This document shows positions 1,792-18,021 of a stretch of 32,936 bases of DNA, in pieces. Both the position numbers and the translations under genes were made by a program. The stretch is taken from NCBI GenBank assembly GCA_025358085.1, contig JANYKT010000062.1, forward strand, positions 1-32,936, written 5' to 3'. Numbering within the stretch: position 1 is the stretch's first letter; each line of letters begins with the position of its first letter. This stretch comes from Deltaproteobacteria bacterium (GTDB lineage Bacteria > Myxococcota > Myxococcia > Myxococcales > 40CM-4-68-19). The notes under the pieces were generated by a model, which was given only the letters and a program-made list of their open reading frames with translations, did not search any database and was not told the origin of the DNA.

Positions 1792-1877
1792 GGGCGCGAC
1801 CTAACACTCGCGGGCCAGCCGGGCAAGTGATAGGCTCAGGCCGCCGCCAGGTAACTACCCCGGGGGGAAAGCATCGG

Positions 1878-3701
1878 ATGTCCGCCTGTCCTCTTTGCTA
1901 TCGCGCCGTCGATCCGGTAGGCGGCCGCTGCCCGAGTTGCGGAGCCGAGCGCCGGGCTTCTACAATCGAGTCGCGCCCGTACGTTTCCGCGACCACGCCG
2001 TCCATTTCGCAAGCGGGTCCTGCGTCGCTGTTCGCCAGCGCTGCCGATGAGCCGACTCCGCCGAGAACCAGGCTGCCTGGTCCCGCGTCCCGCTCGCCGC
2101 CACCGCGCTTGATCCTCAAGGGTTTGGCAGGCGATCTCACCGAATATCCGCTCAGCGACGTCAACAACGTCCTCGGCCGCAGCACCAGCGCCTCGGTGCG
2201 GCTGGCCGACCGCGAGGTGTCGCGCAAGCACAGCCAGATCGATCACGAGGACGAGGACTACATCCTCCGCGACCTTGGCTCCTCCAACGGCACGTTCCTT
2301 AACGGCAAGCGCATCTTCGGGCCGTCGAAGCTGAAGGACGGCGACGAGGTGGTGATCGGCACCTCGAAGATGGAGTTCCGGGTCGCGGCCGGTGGCAACA
2401 AGGCAAAGAACGCCGAGATCGTCCACTCCAAGGACGGCGACGGCGAGCTCGAGGGCGTGGTGGCGCGGGTCGAGGCCAAGGCGAACTTTGCGCCCGTCGA
2501 GCAGGTGCACGACATCAACCAGCTCAAGCGCGACTACGAGCGCCTGCGGGTCGGGCACGAGTTCTCCAACTACGTTCGGCTCGAGCGCGACCTCAATGAG
2601 TTGCTCGCGCGCATCCTGCAAATCGCCTTCGACCTCATCCCTTGCGACAATGGGGTCATCCTGCTGCGCGATGCCACTTCGCGGGAGCTGGTCATCCAGG
2701 CCATGCGGCAGCGCAAGCCTGGGCAGGGCAAGGTGCTGGTCTCGGACACACTGCTCTCGCAGGTGCAGGCCACCCGCGAGGGCGTGCTCACGAGCGACGC
2801 CATCGCCGACGAGCGGTTCCAGTCCAGCCACTCCATCATCGCGCTGGGCGTCCGCTCAGCCATGGCGGTTCCGCTGCTCAACACCTCGGGGGACGAGGTC
2901 AAGGGCATCATGTTCCTCGACTCGCGCGAGCGCATTGCCGCCTTCACCACAAAGGATCTGGAGGTGCTCAGCGCCATCGCTGCGCAGGCCTCGGTGGCGC
3001 TGGAGAACAGCGAGTACGCCCGCGCGCTGGAGCACGAGGCGACGCAGCGCGCGCAGCTGTCGCGGTTCCTCTCGCCGGCGCTGGTGGAGCAGGCGGCGCG
3101 CGGCAGCATCGAGCTGTCCAAGGGCGGCGCGCTGACCGAGCTGACCATCCTCTTCAGCGACATCCGCGGCTTCACTTCCATGTCCGAAAAGATGCCGGCG
3201 CAGGAGGTCGTCCAGATGATGAACGACTACTTCGAGGAGATGGTGGACATCCTCTTCGAGCATCACGGCATCCTCGACAAGTTCATCGGCGATGCCATCA
3301 TGGGCTTGTGGGGCGCGCCGGTGAAGCGGCCGGACGACGCGACGCAGGCAGTGCGCGCGGCCGTGAAGATGCAGAAAGCGGCGCAGCGGTTTTCGGCCGA
3401 GCGGGTCCGGCAGGGCAAGCCGCCGCTGAAGGTCGGTATCGGCATCCACACCGGGCATGTAGTCGTCGGCAACATGGGCTCGTCCAAGGCGCTCAGCTAC
3501 ACAGCCATCGGCGACGGCGTGAACCTGGCCTCGCGGCTCTGCGGCGTGGCGCGCGAAGACATGATCGTCATCTCCGAGGAGTGCGCGCAGAAGGCCGGCA
3601 AGGACAAGTTCGTGCTCGAGGCCCTGCCGCCCGCCAAGGTGAAGAACCGCGAGCAGCCGGTCGAGATCTACCGGGTGCTGGAGGCCATCGAAGACGACTA
3701 G
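1878..3701 (+). CDS. Zinc-ribbon/FHA/GAF class III adenylyl cyclase
   Basis: Predicted soluble enzyme making cAMP from ATP, 607 residues. Domains in order: zinc ribbon with CxxC pairs (C4/C7, C18/C21); Pro-rich linker; FHA domain about 78-170 (LGRS near 98, SRKH near 115, GSSNGTF near 134), which should bind phosphothreonine; GAF domain about 229-382; class III cyclase domain about 420-600. The catalytic set looks complete: metal aspartates D428 (FSDIRGF) and D472, adenine-selecting K468 (DKFIGD) and T542 (SYTAIGD), and the transition-state pair N549/R553 (GVNLASR). The K/T pair argues for ATP rather than GTP. I chose the ATG at 1878 because a GGGGGGAAAG ribosome site lies 6-7 bases upstream and it opens directly on the zinc ribbon; an upstream in-frame start at 1827 lacks this. 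A PYP-like gene and a Ser/Thr kinase follow, so the FHA domain may read a kinase mark (inference). Confidence 0.9.
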   Translation: MSACPLCYRAVDPVGGRCPSCGAERRASTIESRPYVSATTPSISQAGPASLFASAADEPTPPRTRLPGPASRSPPPRLILKGLAGDLTEYPLSDVNNVLGRSTSASVRLADREVSRKHSQIDHEDEDYILRDLGSSNGTFLNGKRIFGPSKLKDGDEVVIGTSKMEFRVAAGGNKAKNAEIVHSKDGDGELEGVVARVEAKANFAPVEQVHDINQLKRDYERLRVGHEFSNYVRLERDLNELLARILQIAFDLIPCDNGVILLRDATSRELVIQAMRQRKPGQGKVLVSDTLLSQVQATREGVLTSDAIADERFQSSHSIIALGVRSAMAVPLLNTSGDEVKGIMFLDSRERIAAFTTKDLEVLSAIAAQASVALENSEYARALEHEATQRAQLSRFLSPALVEQAARGSIELSKGGALTELTILFSDIRGFTSMSEKMPAQEVVQMMNDYFEEMVDILFEHHGILDKFIGDAIMGLWGAPVKRPDDATQAVRAAVKMQKAAQRFSAERVRQGKPPLKVGIGIHTGHVVVGNMGSSKALSYTAIGDGVNLASRLCGVAREDMIVISEECAQKAGKDKFVLEALPPAKVKNREQPVEIYRVLEAIEDD

Positions 3702-4798: not shown

Positions 4799-6007
4799 GT
4801 GGACGCCCCGCTCAACGAGAAGAAGCCACGCGCGGTCTCGCAGCGCTGCCCTAATTGCCAGGCACGCACCGACGTCAGCACGACGATCCTCGGGGCGCTG
4901 GTGCGCTGCGCCCGTTGCGCCGTCCGCTTCGAGGTGAATCGCGGAGACACGCCGCGTCCGCAGCTGCTGCCGGACCCCGAGGCTGCAACGGTCGCGTCGC
5001 CCGCACCCGCGACGGGAGGCGCAAAGCCCGAGTCCCCGCTTCCACAGCTTGATGGGTTCACTGTCCACCAGCGCATCGGCGTCGGCGGCATGGGCGAGGT
5101 GTACCGCTGCACGCGCTTGAGCGACGGCAGGTCGCTCGCGGTCAAGATCCTCTCGGCGCAGATGGCCGCGGTCCCCGACTACGTGCGCCGCTTCGGCCGC
5201 GAGGCGGCGGCGATGGCCCAGCTCGATCACCCTGGCATCGTCCGCATTCTCTCGCGCGGCCGGAGCCCGAAGCACTGCTGGATCGCGATGGAGCTGGTGG
5301 AGGGCGTCTCGCTGCGCACGCATGTGTGGCAGGCAAAACCTTCCGCGCGGCAGCTGGCGCGTTTGCTGGCGCAGGTGGCGCACGCCCTCGCCTACGCTCA
5401 TGCGCGCGCGGTGGTGCACCGCGATCTCAAGCCCGACAACGTGCTGGTCACGCCAGACCTGCGCACCAAGGTGCTCGACTTCGGACTTGCCGGGCTGCAC
5501 GCCGCGGGCGCCGAGTGTCTCACGCAGACGAACGTGGCGATGGGGACCGCGAACTATATGGCCCCCGAGCAGCGCAAGGACGCCAAGCGCGCCGACCATC
5601 GCGCCGATCTCTACTCCTTCGGCGTGATGTCGTACGAGCTGATCACCGGGGAGTTGCCCGTCGGCCGCTTTCTCCAGCCGTCGCGCGCGGTGCCGGGGCT
5701 GGACAAAGGCTGGGATGCGGTCATCGAACGGTGCCTCGAGGTGGATCCGGCGGCGCGGCCGCACAGCGCGCTCGAGTTGGCCCACGCCCTCGAGGCGCTT
5801 GCAGGGGTCAACAACGCGGTGGAACCTGCGCCACGCACCCGCCGCAAGGCCGGCAAGTCCGGGATCTGGTCGTGGCTCGGACTCGGAGCGGGCTTGGCTG
5901 TGGTGATGGGCGTCGCTGCACTCCGCGTGTCGTCCGACCACTCGGCTCGACGGCCTCTGGTGGAGGCGCACGCGCGCGCCTTTGTCCACAAGCCCGCTCG
6001 CCGCTGA
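4799..6007 (+). CDS. Hanks-type serine/threonine protein kinase with N-terminal zinc ribbon and C-terminal membrane anchor
   Basis: Membrane-anchored kinase of 402 residues that transfers phosphate from ATP to Ser/Thr of proteins. The N-terminus has paired CxxC motifs (CPNC near 17, CARC near 38), a probable zinc ribbon. The kinase domain, about 87-340, has every core motif: Gly loop GVGGMGEV from 94, lysine K116, HRDLKPDN with D209, K211 and N214, DFG at D227, and an APE motif within NYMAPEQR. It therefore looks active. A hydrophobic segment at about 358-376 (WLGLGAGLAVVMGVAAL) is followed by a short Arg-rich end, so there is no large extracellular sensor such as PASTA. Start is a GTG at 4799. 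The FHA-domain cyclase about 1.1 kb upstream is a plausible partner because FHA domains bind phosphothreonine; this is inference from proximity. Confidence 0.9.
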   Translation: MDAPLNEKKPRAVSQRCPNCQARTDVSTTILGALVRCARCAVRFEVNRGDTPRPQLLPDPEAATVASPAPATGGAKPESPLPQLDGFTVHQRIGVGGMGEVYRCTRLSDGRSLAVKILSAQMAAVPDYVRRFGREAAAMAQLDHPGIVRILSRGRSPKHCWIAMELVEGVSLRTHVWQAKPSARQLARLLAQVAHALAYAHARAVVHRDLKPDNVLVTPDLRTKVLDFGLAGLHAAGAECLTQTNVAMGTANYMAPEQRKDAKRADHRADLYSFGVMSYELITGELPVGRFLQPSRAVPGLDKGWDAVIERCLEVDPAARPHSALELAHALEALAGVNNAVEPAPRTRRKAGKSGIWSWLGLGAGLAVVMGVAALRVSSDHSARRPLVEAHARAFVHKPARR

Positions 6008-13426: not shown

Positions 13427-13804
13427 ATGAGACCGAAAAAAGTGCTGATCGTCGATGACTCGAAGCTGCTGCATCGAATGTTCGAGATGATGCTGCGGCA
13501 GTACACGCTCGTGCACGCCTACGACGGGCGCGAGGCGATCGACAGATTGAATGAGCACAAGGATGTCGACCTGGTTCTGCTCGACATCAATATGCCGCGG
13601 ATGAACGGGCTGGAATTCCTGGCCGAGGTCAAAAGCATCGTCGAGCACCAGCGAATTCCGGTCGTCATCATCACCACTGAAGGAACCGAGGACGATACCC
13701 AGCGCGGGCTCGATGCCGGCGCCGCCGCATATGTGAAGAAGCCATTTCGTAACGAGGAATTGTTAGGCGTGATCAATCGGCTCACCGCGAGCCCCGCCCC
13801 GTGA
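13427..13804 (+). CDS. Single-domain CheY-like response regulator
   Basis: Receiver domain only, 125 residues. It has the acidic pair D10/D11 (VLIVDDSK), phospho-acceptor D53 (LVLLDINMP), Thr at 83-84 (VIITTEG) and the conserved Lys-Pro K105-P106 (YVKKPF). All phosphorylation residues are present, and there is no DNA-binding or enzymatic output domain, so it must act through protein contacts. It heads a four-gene chain with overlapping ends (GTGA with the GAF gene at 13801-13804), suggesting it signals to or through the products downstream. No histidine kinase is in the window. The 81 bases upstream contain TTGACT but no convincing -10. Confidence 0.9.
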   Translation: MRPKKVLIVDDSKLLHRMFEMMLRQYTLVHAYDGREAIDRLNEHKDVDLVLLDINMPRMNGLEFLAEVKSIVEHQRIPVVIITTEGTEDDTQRGLDAGAAAYVKKPFRNEELLGVINRLTASPAP

Positions 13805-14547
13805 CCGAGCCGCGAAAGCTGGCCGACGCTTTGCCGCCTCGTGCCGGGGTTGCCCTTGAGGAACTGCGCGCCACGCTCGATCGCGCCGCCGAGCTGACGC
13901 GCGAGCTCAGGGACCTGCCCGCTCCCGCTCCCGCTGGGCAAGTCCGGGAAGAACTGGCCGCTCGACTCGCCGACGTCGAATCGGACCGGACCGAGCTGTC
14001 GCACAAGCTGGCCGAATACGAGCAGCAGGTGGGCCGGCTGATGAACCTGTACGTCGCAACCTACCAACTGCACGCCACGCTCGATCCCGCCGAGGTGCAA
14101 GCCACCATCGCCGAGATCGCCATCAACCTTCTCGGCGCCGAGCGCTTCGCGCTGCTCTTCTGGAAGACCGACGCGGCTGAATGCGAGATCGCCCTCCAGC
14201 AGGGCATGGATCGAGACGGGAGCGGTCTCTACATCAACAACACTTATGCCGGCGGCGACGCGGCGGTGGACGCGACCTTGTCCGACGGCGTGCTCCGCAT
14301 GGGGCCCATCGACGGGTCGGACGTGCTGGCCGCGGTCCCACTCACGGTGCAAGGCGCGACGGTGGGCGCGCTCGTCATCCTGAAGCTTTTTGACCACAAG
14401 TCGGGGCTGCGGCCGGACGACCGCGACCTGCTGGACCTGCTCGCGGCCCACGCGGCCTCTGCGCTGTTTGCAGCCCGCGTGTATTCGAACACCGACCGCA
14501 AGCTCAAGACACTGGAGAGCCTGGTCAAGCTCGTCAGGCGCAAGTAG
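13801..14547 (+). CDS. Coiled-coil GAF-domain protein
   Basis: Protein of 248 residues. A helical coiled coil occupies about 18-80 (LEELRATLDRAAELTRELRD; EELAARLADVESDRTELSHK). The GAF domain, about 85-230, contains NLYVATYQLHATLDPAEVQA, LLGAERFALLFW, VLAAVPLTVQGATVGALVIL and DRDLLDLLAAHAASAL, the usual GAF closing helix. GAF domains bind small molecules such as cyclic nucleotides or mediate dimerisation; the ligand here cannot be read. The GTG start overlaps the receiver stop (GTGA), so translation is coupled. The next gene follows after one intervening base, and GAF domains recur in that product. Confidence 0.85.
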   Translation: MTEPRKLADALPPRAGVALEELRATLDRAAELTRELRDLPAPAPAGQVREELAARLADVESDRTELSHKLAEYEQQVGRLMNLYVATYQLHATLDPAEVQATIAEIAINLLGAERFALLFWKTDAAECEIALQQGMDRDGSGLYINNTYAGGDAAVDATLSDGVLRMGPIDGSDVLAAVPLTVQGATVGALVILKLFDHKSGLRPDDRDLLDLLAAHAASALFAARVYSNTDRKLKTLESLVKLVRRK

Positions 14548-14548
14548 C

Positions 14549-16114
14549 TTGAGCCTCTCCGGCAACCTCGAGGACGTCTCCGTCGCGGACGCGCTGCAGT
14601 TCATCCATCTCGGTGGCCGGACCGGCACGCTGACGCTGACCCTGGGCGAGACCCGCGCCGAGATTGGCTTCCACCAGGGCCGCATCGTGAACGCCTGGGG
14701 GCCGGGCTCCAAGCGGCTGGGAGAGCTCCTGGTCGACGAAAAAGTCATCGACCAGCCCACCCTTGATGCGGCGTTGGCGCAGCAGAGTGCCGAGCACCCG
14801 CGCCGTTCGCTCGGGCAGATCCTGGTGGCCACGAAGGCGCTCGCGCCCGAGGTCATGTACCGCGCCGTGCAGCAGCAAATCGAGCGGACCGTCCACGACC
14901 TGGTGGCCTGGTCGCAGGGCACCTTCCAATTCGCGCTGGACGATCTCAAGCCCATCGACGACATCGCTGTTTTCCCCGGCGACGTCATCGGCCACCTCAA
15001 TCTCGACACGCAGATGGTGCTGCTCGATGCGCTGCGCATCTTCGACGAGCGCAACCGCGACGCGCAGCTGGCCAAGACACCCACGCCAGCCCTGGGCGGT
15101 CCCAAGGTCGCGCCGGCGCCGATGGTCCCGCCGCCTCCTCCCGCGGACATGCTCGCTGCCGTGCCGCGACCGGCTCTCGCGCCCGCCACCGCGACCGATC
15201 CGGTGGGACAGCGGCTGCGTCTGCAGATCATCTCTTCCGATCGCCAGCTTGCCGAGAAGCTTGCGCAGGGGATGCCCGCAGCCGAGGCCACCGTGGTGCG
15301 GCTGACGCTGCGCGAGGCTGGAACGCCGCCACCGGGCGAGCAGCCGCCCATCGTGCTCATCGATCTGCGCGGCGGCGGCATCGCGCTCGACGCCATCACC
15401 GGACTTCGCCGCGCCCGGCCCCGCGCCTCCATCCTCGCGGTGGTCGACGCTGGCGTCCCGCTTTCGCAGGTGTACCAGGCGGGCGCAATGGCCGCGGTTC
15501 CGGGCGACATCAACATCATCCTCGCCTGCTTTCGTTCGATGGCCGCCAACCGGCGCGACCTGCTGACCGGCGGCGTCCGGACCGAAAAGGTCGACGCCAG
15601 CTTCGCCAAGCTTCGCCGCATCGTCGGCGACCTGCGCTCGGGGCTCATCTCCACCACCATTTCGCTGAGCCTGATGAACATCATCAGCGAATCGGTCGAG
15701 CGCGCGGTGCTCTTCCTGGTGCGCCGCGACGGCCTGACCGCGCTGGGCGCGTTCGGGAACAGCCACGATGGCCAGCCGCTCGCGCATGTCACCCGCGGTC
15801 TCAAGCTCCCGCTCACCGAACAGAACGCGCTGGTCGACAGCCTGGCCGACGGCCAGGTGCGGTCCTCGCTCTTCGACGACGCGCACTTTCCGGCCAGCTT
15901 CGTCGGCCTGGTGGGGCGGCCGCGCTCGTCCCAGTGCGCAATCTTTCCCGTGCTCGGCGGGTCGCGGGTCATCGCTGTCGTCTATGCAGACAATGGACTT
16001 TCCAATCGCGCCATCGAGGAGATCGACATCCTGGAGCTGGCGGCCGCGCAGGCTGGCCTTGCCTTCGAAAACGAGCTGCTTCGTCGCCAGGCCGCCCAGC
16101 CGCGGCCGGCTTGA
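14549..16114 (+). CDS. PATAN (DUF4388)/degenerate receiver/GAF scaffold protein
   Basis: Protein of 521 residues. The PATAN domain is at about 1-165: SLSGNLEDVSVADALQFIHL, GRTGTLTLTLGETRAEIGFH and GRIVNAWG, the standard GxL-x-xSLxDLLQ and HxGRIVxA pattern. A Pro-rich linker (175-215) follows. About 222-340 looks like a receiver fold: LQIISSDRQL (SSD where receivers have DD), IVLIDLRGG with Asp272 at the acceptor place, and ILAVVDAG. The acidic pocket is incomplete, so phosphorylation is doubtful. The GAF-like domain is about 345-510 (SLMNIISESVERAVLFLVRR; QCAIFPVLGGSRVIAVVYAD). Start TTG at 14549, since upstream sequence overlaps the GAF gene. The next gene starts at its stop. Confidence 0.85.
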   Translation: MSLSGNLEDVSVADALQFIHLGGRTGTLTLTLGETRAEIGFHQGRIVNAWGPGSKRLGELLVDEKVIDQPTLDAALAQQSAEHPRRSLGQILVATKALAPEVMYRAVQQQIERTVHDLVAWSQGTFQFALDDLKPIDDIAVFPGDVIGHLNLDTQMVLLDALRIFDERNRDAQLAKTPTPALGGPKVAPAPMVPPPPPADMLAAVPRPALAPATATDPVGQRLRLQIISSDRQLAEKLAQGMPAAEATVVRLTLREAGTPPPGEQPPIVLIDLRGGGIALDAITGLRRARPRASILAVVDAGVPLSQVYQAGAMAAVPGDINIILACFRSMAANRRDLLTGGVRTEKVDASFAKLRRIVGDLRSGLISTTISLSLMNIISESVERAVLFLVRRDGLTALGAFGNSHDGQPLAHVTRGLKLPLTEQNALVDSLADGQVRSSLFDDAHFPASFVGLVGRPRSSQCAIFPVLGGSRVIAVVYADNGLSNRAIEEIDILELAAAQAGLAFENELLRRQAAQPRPA

Positions 16115-18021
16115 TGCTGGAGGGACTACCTTTGACAGGCTCTGAGATCCTGGCCGGGCTGGAAGATGCACGGCCGAACGTACGGGAGCAGGCCATCGCG
16201 CGGGCGGCGCAGGAAATTTCGCCCGAGGCGCTGGGCAAGCTGGTCGGCAATCAGGAGAATGCGGTCCTGCGCAACTCGGCGCTGGCGGCGCTCGAGCGGC
16301 AAGGGCCGTTTGCCGTGCCCCACCTGATGTCGTTGGCAGGCGAGAAAAACCTCGAAGTCGCGATGTTCGCCGTCCAGCTGCTCTCGCGCATCAAGGACCC
16401 TTCGACCGTCGCGGCGCTGCTGCCGCTGGTCGAGCACACCGACCCCAACATCGCGCAGGCGGCCATCGAGGCGCTCGGGGCCCTCAAGGCCCGCGACGCC
16501 GTGCCCGTGCTCATCCGCCGGCTCGACGCCGACCTCTGGCTGCAGTTCGCGGCGGTGGCTGCTCTCGGCGAGATCGCCGACGCTCGTGCCGTCGAGCCGC
16601 TGCTCGACGCCATCGCAAACGAGATGCTGTCCGAGCCTGCGGTCGAGGCGCTGGGCCGCATCGCCTCGCCCGAGTCGTTGCCGCGGCTGCTTGCGGTGCT
16701 GGCCGATCACGACCGGCTGCCGCTGCGCGACTACGTGCTGCGCGCGGCAGCGCTGGTGATCGAGGGCCACGCGGTGCCGCCCTCGGTCTTCACGCGCTTC
16801 CGCCGCAAGCTGCAGCTCGGCGACGCGCGGCAAGAGGCGCAGCTGGTGGATTACCTCGCGGGACTGATCGTCTCGGGCGAGATGGGTCTGGCGCGGGCCG
16901 CGGCGTCGCTTGCGCTCTCGGCCGAGCTGTCGCTGCTCTATCCGGCGGTTGTGCAGCGCGCACTCGAAGACGACGCGGAAGAGGCGCGCTGGACAGCCGC
17001 GCTCTGCCGCCGGCACGAGCGCACGCTGCGGTCGGCGCTGCTGGCGCTCTTGCGCAACGCCGACGCCCGCGTGCGCCGCGCGGCGCTGCTGGCTACGCAC
17101 GGCGACGCGGCCACCGTGTTGCCGCTGCTGAGGGATCCGGAGGTCGCCGTGCGCGCCGCCGCGTGCCAGGCGCTGGGCCGCAGCCGCGACGTGGCCGCCA
17201 TCCCCGCGCTGGTCGACAAACTTTCGGCGGGCGCCCCGCAGGAGGTGTCGGCCGCGGCCGAGGCGCTGGGCTGCATGCCGGGACAGAGCCTGCTCGCGCT
17301 CGCGCCTTTCCTCGAGGCGCCCGACCGGGTGCTCCTCGCGCTGGGCGTTCTGGAAGCAGCGAAGAGTCCACTCTTCGAGGACAAGGTCGTGGAGCTGCTC
17401 GATGCCGGGAGCGCGACGGTGCGCCGCGCGGCGCTGAGGGTGCTGGTCAACCTCGACCACATCGACTTCGAGGAGCAGCTGGTCCGCAAGCTGGAAGATC
17501 CCGACGAGCAGGTGCGCATCGAAGCGGTCGAGCTGATCGTGCGCAACGGCTCGTCCACTCGCGCGGAGCCGGCGCTGGTCGGGCTGCTCGGCGTCGGCGA
17601 CGAGCTGCGCTACCATGTCATCCGGGCCTTGGGGCGCCTGCGCGCCACCGGCGCGGCTCCGGCGCTGGAGGAGCTCTTCACGCGCGCGGGAGGTCACGAG
17701 CGGCTCGAGGTGGTGGCCGCGCTCATTCGCATCGCGGCGCCGGGGATATTGCCTTTTCTGCATGCGCGCCTCGCTGAGCCCGACACCGAACTCCGGCGCG
17801 TTGCCGCCGACGGCCTCGCGCGAGTCGCGACGGCGGCCGAGCTACCGCTCCTGCTCCAGCTCGCGTTGGACTCCGACTGGACACTGCGCAATCACGCTGG
17901 GTGGGGCTTGGGGCGGCTGGGGCTCGCTGCTGGCCGTGAGACACTGCTCGCGCTGGTTCGGGACACCGAGGCATTGGTGGCGCGCACGGCTCGCGCAGCG
18001 CTCGCCAAGCTACCTGCCTGA
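16114..18021 (+). CDS. HEAT-repeat protein
   Basis: Cytoplasmic scaffold of 635 residues made almost wholly of HEAT-like repeats with the xxDPxxxVRxxAxxALxxL rhythm: NVREQAIARAAQEIS (~23-37), DPNIAQAAIEALGALKARDA (~110-129), EVAVRAAACQALGRSRD (~342-358), DEQVRIEAVELIVRNG (~465-480) and ELRRVAADGLARVATAAELP (~556-575). Two start options exist. ATG at 16114 overlaps the previous stop (TGATG). A TTG at 16132 follows a strong GGAGGG site (16119-16124) at 7 bases and would remove six residues. I give the longer form. Because it closes the receiver-GAF-PATAN chain, it is a likely docking partner for those proteins (inference). Confidence 0.88.
   Translation: MLEGLPLTGSEILAGLEDARPNVREQAIARAAQEISPEALGKLVGNQENAVLRNSALAALERQGPFAVPHLMSLAGEKNLEVAMFAVQLLSRIKDPSTVAALLPLVEHTDPNIAQAAIEALGALKARDAVPVLIRRLDADLWLQFAAVAALGEIADARAVEPLLDAIANEMLSEPAVEALGRIASPESLPRLLAVLADHDRLPLRDYVLRAAALVIEGHAVPPSVFTRFRRKLQLGDARQEAQLVDYLAGLIVSGEMGLARAAASLALSAELSLLYPAVVQRALEDDAEEARWTAALCRRHERTLRSALLALLRNADARVRRAALLATHGDAATVLPLLRDPEVAVRAAACQALGRSRDVAAIPALVDKLSAGAPQEVSAAAEALGCMPGQSLLALAPFLEAPDRVLLALGVLEAAKSPLFEDKVVELLDAGSATVRRAALRVLVNLDHIDFEEQLVRKLEDPDEQVRIEAVELIVRNGSSTRAEPALVGLLGVGDELRYHVIRALGRLRATGAAPALEELFTRAGGHERLEVVAALIRIAAPGILPFLHARLAEPDTELRRVAADGLARVATAAELPLLLQLALDSDWTLRNHAGWGLGRLGLAAGRETLLALVRDTEALVARTARAALAKLPA

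Follow-up and report, generated by a model that had tools for sequence, protein, structure and literature searches.

An operon of CheY-like, GAF and PATAN proteins with an optional HEAT-repeat member as a probable output arm of chemosensory systems in Myxococcota and Acidobacteriota

In Myxococcus xanthus, the Che7 chemosensory system consists of CheY7, CheA7, CheW7, Mcp7, Cpc7, CheR7 and CheB7, with locus tags running from MXAN_6959 (CheB7) to MXAN_6965 (CheY7) (PMC3945109). An interaction between its single-domain receiver CheY7 and the HEAT-repeat protein Cpc7 is reported in an article that cites Darnell 2014 for it (PMC11514114). PATAN proteins are known from a different setting. Cyanobacterial PATAN regulators bind PilB1, the motor of the pilus, and set the direction of twitching (PMC10519157, PMC12288463). 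For the M. xanthus PATAN proteins MXAN_3211 and MXAN_4965, co-occurrence with SgmX, a polar regulator of pili, is reported (PMC11580455). The operon described here brings a CheY-like receiver, a GAF protein, a PATAN protein and, in some genomes, a HEAT-repeat protein into one gene order, and in several lineages it adjoins the genes of chemosensory systems.

The stretch of DNA analysed, hereafter the window, comprises 32,936 nucleotides. It covers one contig completely, in the draft genome (5.4 Mb) of a soil myxobacterium-like organism (G000). Four genes follow one another on its plus strand. Gene A (13427..13804; 125 aa) encodes a CheY-like single-domain receiver (Pfam Response_reg, 8.9e-27); gene B (13801..14547; 248 aa, GTG start) a helical N-terminus followed by a GAF domain (GAF_2, 1.5e-6); gene C (14549..16114; 521 aa, TTG start) a PATAN/DUF4388 domain, a pseudo-receiver and a GAF domain; and gene D (16114..18021; 635 aa), an optional member, a HEAT-repeat protein (HEAT_2, 7.2e-50, seven stretches). 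A and B overlap by GTGA, a single intergenic base precedes the TTG of C, and C and D overlap by TGATG. These four frames, their order, their junctions and the 635-residue HEAT protein had all been reported in an earlier sequence-only reading, and each is confirmed in the sequence. Orthologues of C have M or V as their first residue where this TTG lies, which supports the start assigned to C. Gene D has an alternative TTG start six codons in, and its exact overlap with C is not conserved among relatives. The operon encodes no histidine kinase, and no CheA, MCP or CheW gene was found near it in the window. On the minus strand, an open reading frame of 817 aa (13519-15972) spans A, B and C; it is most likely spurious, a product of high GC.

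Gene A has the residues expected of a CheY-like receiver, and its catalytic set is complete: the acid pair D10-D11, the phospho-acceptor D53, T83 and K105. In an alignment of 14 receivers, D10, D11, D53 and K105 are invariant and T83 is nearly so. The product of gene B contains stretches, LYVAT and QLH, that are invariant in a 25-member alignment, and its predicted model (pLDDT 85.5) combines a helix at residues 45-92 with a GAF fold whose matches in the PDB are GAF domains (5w10, 3oov). The best of these fold matches is a cAMP-bound GAF domain; the same contig encodes an FHA-GAF-class III nucleotide cyclase (1827-3701) and a Ser/Thr protein kinase (4799-6007), and a link between B and these genes is possible. 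The best non-orthologues of B include GAF genes from REC-GAF-CheD-CheA operons.

The N-terminal part of C (residues 1-168; 14549..15052, plus strand) is a PATAN/DUF4388 domain (PF14332, 5.8e-28, residues 4-168), the domain that marks response regulators of the PatA/PixG type. Set within it is a helical insert (residues 56-110; 14714..14878, plus strand) related to MshEN/GSPII domains, which was absent from the sequence-only reading. The MshE-related c-di-GMP motif model NF053729 scores 40.5 bits on the window protein against a cut-off of 38, and 35 of the 36 members of the C family match it (E 0.001). A profile built from the 36 members aligned residues 51-110 with PilF (1.8e-17), PilB (8.7e-9) and MshE (5htl, 9.1e-8) in the PDB. 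Makarova 2006, as cited in PMC5812497, names an 'alpha-helical insertion' of PATAN in its title, and the insert of C probably corresponds to it. The VIA-align list of structural matches for the C model barely covered its N-terminal part and contained no PATAN or MshEN chain for it. Among Myxococcota PATAN proteins unrelated to the operon, four (L001, L022, L026, L033) reach 50-52 bits with NF053729 (cut-off 38), and the PATAN proteins L021, L024 and L029 do not match this model.

Comparison with the published motif of the c-di-GMP half-sites (PMC5013675) separates the window protein from most of its relatives. Half-site I fits the motif in most orthologues, and across the family the Arg of half-site II is replaced by Ser or another residue. 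In the window protein, Lys replaces Gly at the [GAS] position in both half-sites, and in half-site II the [RKPN] position has Ser in place of Arg. Homologues from Desulfuromonadales have a degraded second half-site. Because the half-site residues differ in this way, binding of c-di-GMP is plausible for relatives of C and doubtful for the window protein, whose site, judged by these residues, is probably weakened or lost.

The middle domain of C had been read as a receiver lacking one of its acidic residues and perhaps a pseudo-receiver, with structure prediction suggested as a check. The AlphaFold model (pLDDT 82) places a degenerate receiver fold at residues 221-344 (15209..15580, plus strand), with Z of about 14 to the receivers of PleD and TorR, and the 36-member family profile aligned residues 235-354 with PDB receivers at 2.5e-4. 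Loss of catalytic residues goes further than had been noticed. When the domain is aligned to A, both acid-pair positions are Ser, and neither the Thr nor the Lys survives; Asp272, at the phospho-acceptor position, is kept, here and in most family members. On this pattern of residues and the predicted fold, the domain is classed as a pseudo-receiver, and the phosphorylatable receiver that PatA/PixG-type regulators have in the same protein is missing from C. The C-terminal part (residues 358-516; 15620..16096, plus strand) is a strongly conserved GAF domain, for which Pfam gave only a weak match beside PATAN and which the model resolves with Z of 17.2 to an MCP GAF domain (3oov). Conservation of C is highest in the PATAN and terminal GAF domains and low in the linker; over residues 347-515, mean identity to the window protein is 0.72 in Myxococcota and 0.58 in Acidobacteriota.

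The order A-B-C is found again in other Myxococcota and in Acidobacteriota, where identity of C ranges from 41 to 70%, and its recurrence in two phyla argues that the arrangement is more than chance. In the window's own family (f1), full-length or fragmentary C occurs in 10 of 12 genomes, and A, B and C lie in the same order wherever contigs allow; the locus in G006 yielded B and C only, and the neighbourhoods in G005 and G006 differ from that of the window. Nearly every locus has the GAF gene B ahead of the PATAN gene. When named genomes were scanned with an alignment query, the Acidobacteriota with A-B-C in order belonged mostly to Thermoanaerobaculia, and remote PATAN-GAF homologues turned up in Desulfuromonadales. 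Full-length C was not seen in the large-genome Myxococcaceae-like family f4, and a plasmid search returned no relative of C. Two Acidobacteriota loci have a gene of 280-297 aa without a Pfam match directly behind C (L083, 11663-12505; L099, 11643-12536). In the genome G067, GAF-PATAN occurs three times behind a receiver gene (L131, L132, L133), and one of these copies adjoins CheB.

The HEAT gene follows a different pattern. D is present in G000, G002, G008 and G009 and, outside f1, in G031 and G080. In G001, G004 and G007, C and the gene that follows it have no D between them, and a search of G001, G004, G005, G006 and G007, five close relatives that all keep B-C, found no orthologue of D anywhere. 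A-B-C is therefore the core of the operon and the HEAT gene is optional, so the four-gene order, for which a survey had been proposed, extends beyond this genome but in its HEAT-containing form only to a subset. The tree of C is too poorly resolved to separate a single gain of the HEAT gene from repeated losses. Among 60 relatives, the best non-orthologous matches to D lie, at seven of the eight loci examined, in HEAT genes of che clusters, usually between MCP and CheR; CheA and/or MCP, CheW and CheR surround the HEAT gene at L062, in the window's own genome, and at L063, L064, L065, L066, L067 and L068, and L074 is the exception. At five of these loci (L062-L065, L067), the gene order is the one implied by the M. 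xanthus che7 tags (PMC3945109). HEAT-to-HEAT similarity is inflated by the repeats; the N-terminal 200 residues of D align in register with HEAT proteins of 631-655 aa from the Acidobacteriota clusters (31%, 1e-22) and with a HEAT protein of 211 aa from G023. An enzymatic role of D was considered and rejected, because its NCBIfam matches to phycobilin lyases and NblB fall well below the cut-offs and reflect generic HEAT similarity.

Chemosensory genes adjoin the A-B-C triad in at least four different arrangements. In six Acidobacteriota loci (L082, L083, L087, L094, L098, L099), A-B-C is divergent from CheA-CheW-MCP-HEAT-CheR(-CheB). Behind A-B-C-D in G031 come another REC-GAF pair, CheA, MCP and CheR, and in G080 a CheA-type Hpt segment lies directly behind D. 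G049 has one run of REC'-GAF'-CheD-CheA-MCP-CheW-CheR-CheB-B-C, and in G163 B-C precedes REC'-GAF'-CheD-CheA-CheW-MCP-CheR-CheB. In G005, an MCP gene ends just upstream of A and CheA is about 8 kb away. Upstream sequence of 8 kb or more is available for 18 loci, and 8 of these have CheA no more than 10 kb upstream. The window's genome has two CheA genes in 5.4 Mb, so that fewer than 1% of random places would be as near to one; even with eight such genes the proportion would be about 3%. Because the six divergent Acidobacteriota loci may descend from one ancestral arrangement, the independent linkages number about four or five, not ten. At L089, L091, L092, L095, L097, L101 and L102, which have long flanks, the search used found no che cluster. 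The Acidobacteriota che clusters examined yielded no single-domain receiver other than A, which therefore fits as their cognate CheY. Both che clusters of the window's genome (L061, L062) already have their own CheY. REC-GAF pairs related to A-B also head CheD-CheA-type che operons at L072 (3890-8979), L071 and L048. That the CheY-like switch, the PATAN protein and the HEAT scaffold form one functional unit, as the sequence-only reading had proposed, is supported. Its further suggestion of a self-contained pathway is not supported, because the same genes adjoin CheA, CheW, MCP, CheR and CheB in other lineages and because five close relatives lack the HEAT gene although they have the PATAN gene with its GAF partner.

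The operon is probably the output arm of a CheA-CheW-MCP chemosensory system. Against this reading stand the absence of CheA, MCP and CheW near the operon in the window, the presence of a CheY of their own in both che clusters of its genome, and the long-flank loci at which the search used found no che cluster. In the mechanism we propose, A would be phosphorylated by a CheA encoded elsewhere in the same genome, and phosphorylated A would engage the HEAT scaffold D, in the manner of CheY7 and Cpc7, and/or the GAF protein B. The signal from B and D would then converge on C. There the pseudo-receiver and the GAF domain would have regulatory and binding roles, and the PATAN domain would act on a target, most plausibly a type IV pilus motor; in most relatives of C, the MshEN-like insert could also read c-di-GMP. 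The window's genome encodes several T2SSE/PilB-type ATPases. By analogy with described PATAN regulators, polarity or behaviour switching through a PATAN link to pilus motors is plausible. A fuller version, offered only tentatively, is a complex of REC, GAF and PATAN-MshEN-pseudoreceiver-GAF proteins, conserved in two phyla, that works as a chemosensory output device. A single PATAN adaptor would integrate CheA-CheY phosphorylation with c-di-GMP and steer type IV pili accordingly, and the HEAT protein would be an interchangeable scaffold that binds CheY.

Three other accounts of the operon were weighed against an output arm of a chemosensory system. In the window and in most genomes of the family, the genes are set in a conserved neighbourhood of housekeeping genes and not beside che clusters, as they would be if an orphan histidine kinase switched A and a complex of B, C and D marked the cell pole without CheA; the co-occurrence of MXAN_3211 and MXAN_4965 with SgmX points the same way. 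Such a self-contained polarity module is nevertheless unlikely, given the recurrent che linkage and the lack of a histidine kinase in the operon. C might instead be mainly a c-di-GMP receptor that controls a pilus or secretion ATPase, with A and B as accessory modulators and the che linkage secondary. The score of the insert above the cut-off, its match in nearly the whole family and the likeness of the family profile to PilF, PilB and MshE would agree with this; the exchange of Gly for Lys in both half-sites of the window protein, the loss of the half-site II Arg in the family and the degraded second half-site in Desulfuromonadales make it quite improbable. It is hardly credible that unrelated genes came to be adjacent by chance, with D as a passenger. 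The absence of D from the five relatives that keep B-C and the unconserved C-D overlap would be expected under such neutrality, but the A-B-C order is kept in two phyla amid unlike neighbourhoods, and D travels with C also in the f6 genomes G031 and G080.

An output arm of this composition would tie CheY-HEAT signalling, known from myxobacteria, and PATAN control of pili, known from cyanobacteria, to MshEN-type reception of c-di-GMP, in soil lineages that are poorly cultured. Many 'DUF4388' proteins with MshE-like inserts become testable as c-di-GMP receptors, and several Acidobacteriota che systems gain a concrete candidate for their output. No description of the A-B-C core, with or without D, or of its che linkage was found in the open-licence papers searched, in keeping with the earlier statement that no described pathway with this exact domain chain was known; each part is of a known kind, and the combination and the linkage are new as far as that literature was searched.

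Individual resemblances to known systems are accompanied by clear differences. The cyanobacterial regulators PixG, PixE, LsiR and TaxP2 likewise join PATAN to a receiver-type domain and are encoded with chemotaxis-like genes, whereas here the receiver in C is degenerate and followed by a GAF domain, the active receiver is the separate protein A, and a second GAF protein, B, is encoded ahead of the PATAN gene. The insert of C (residues 51-110) shares with the MshEN/GSPII domains of MshE, PilB and PilF a tandem two-motif helical structure, but it sits in PATAN and not in an ATPase, and the key Gly of both motifs is Lys. The REC-GAF proteins of the Anaeromyxobacter-like CheD-CheA-MCP-CheW-CheR-CheB operons (L048, L072) are about 30-39% identical to A and B; they have no PATAN protein directly behind the pair, and G049 combines both kinds in one operon. 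Compared with the M. xanthus Che7 system, the window operon has GAF and PATAN partners and no CheA or other che core genes, and its HEAT gene lies outside a CheY-CheA-CheW-MCP-HEAT-CheR-CheB order. That order is present in the same genome at L062 (contig C155, 8288-17926), with a HEAT protein of 784 aa, and in the divergent Acidobacteriota clusters beside A-B-C; neither a GAF nor a PATAN partner was found at those che7-type loci that were examined. D is not Cpc7 itself, being a distinct, shorter HEAT lineage (635 versus 778-789 aa) with 26-29% identity over long alignments. What the two systems share is a single-domain CheY together with a HEAT protein, and the relatives of D occupy the position of Cpc7.
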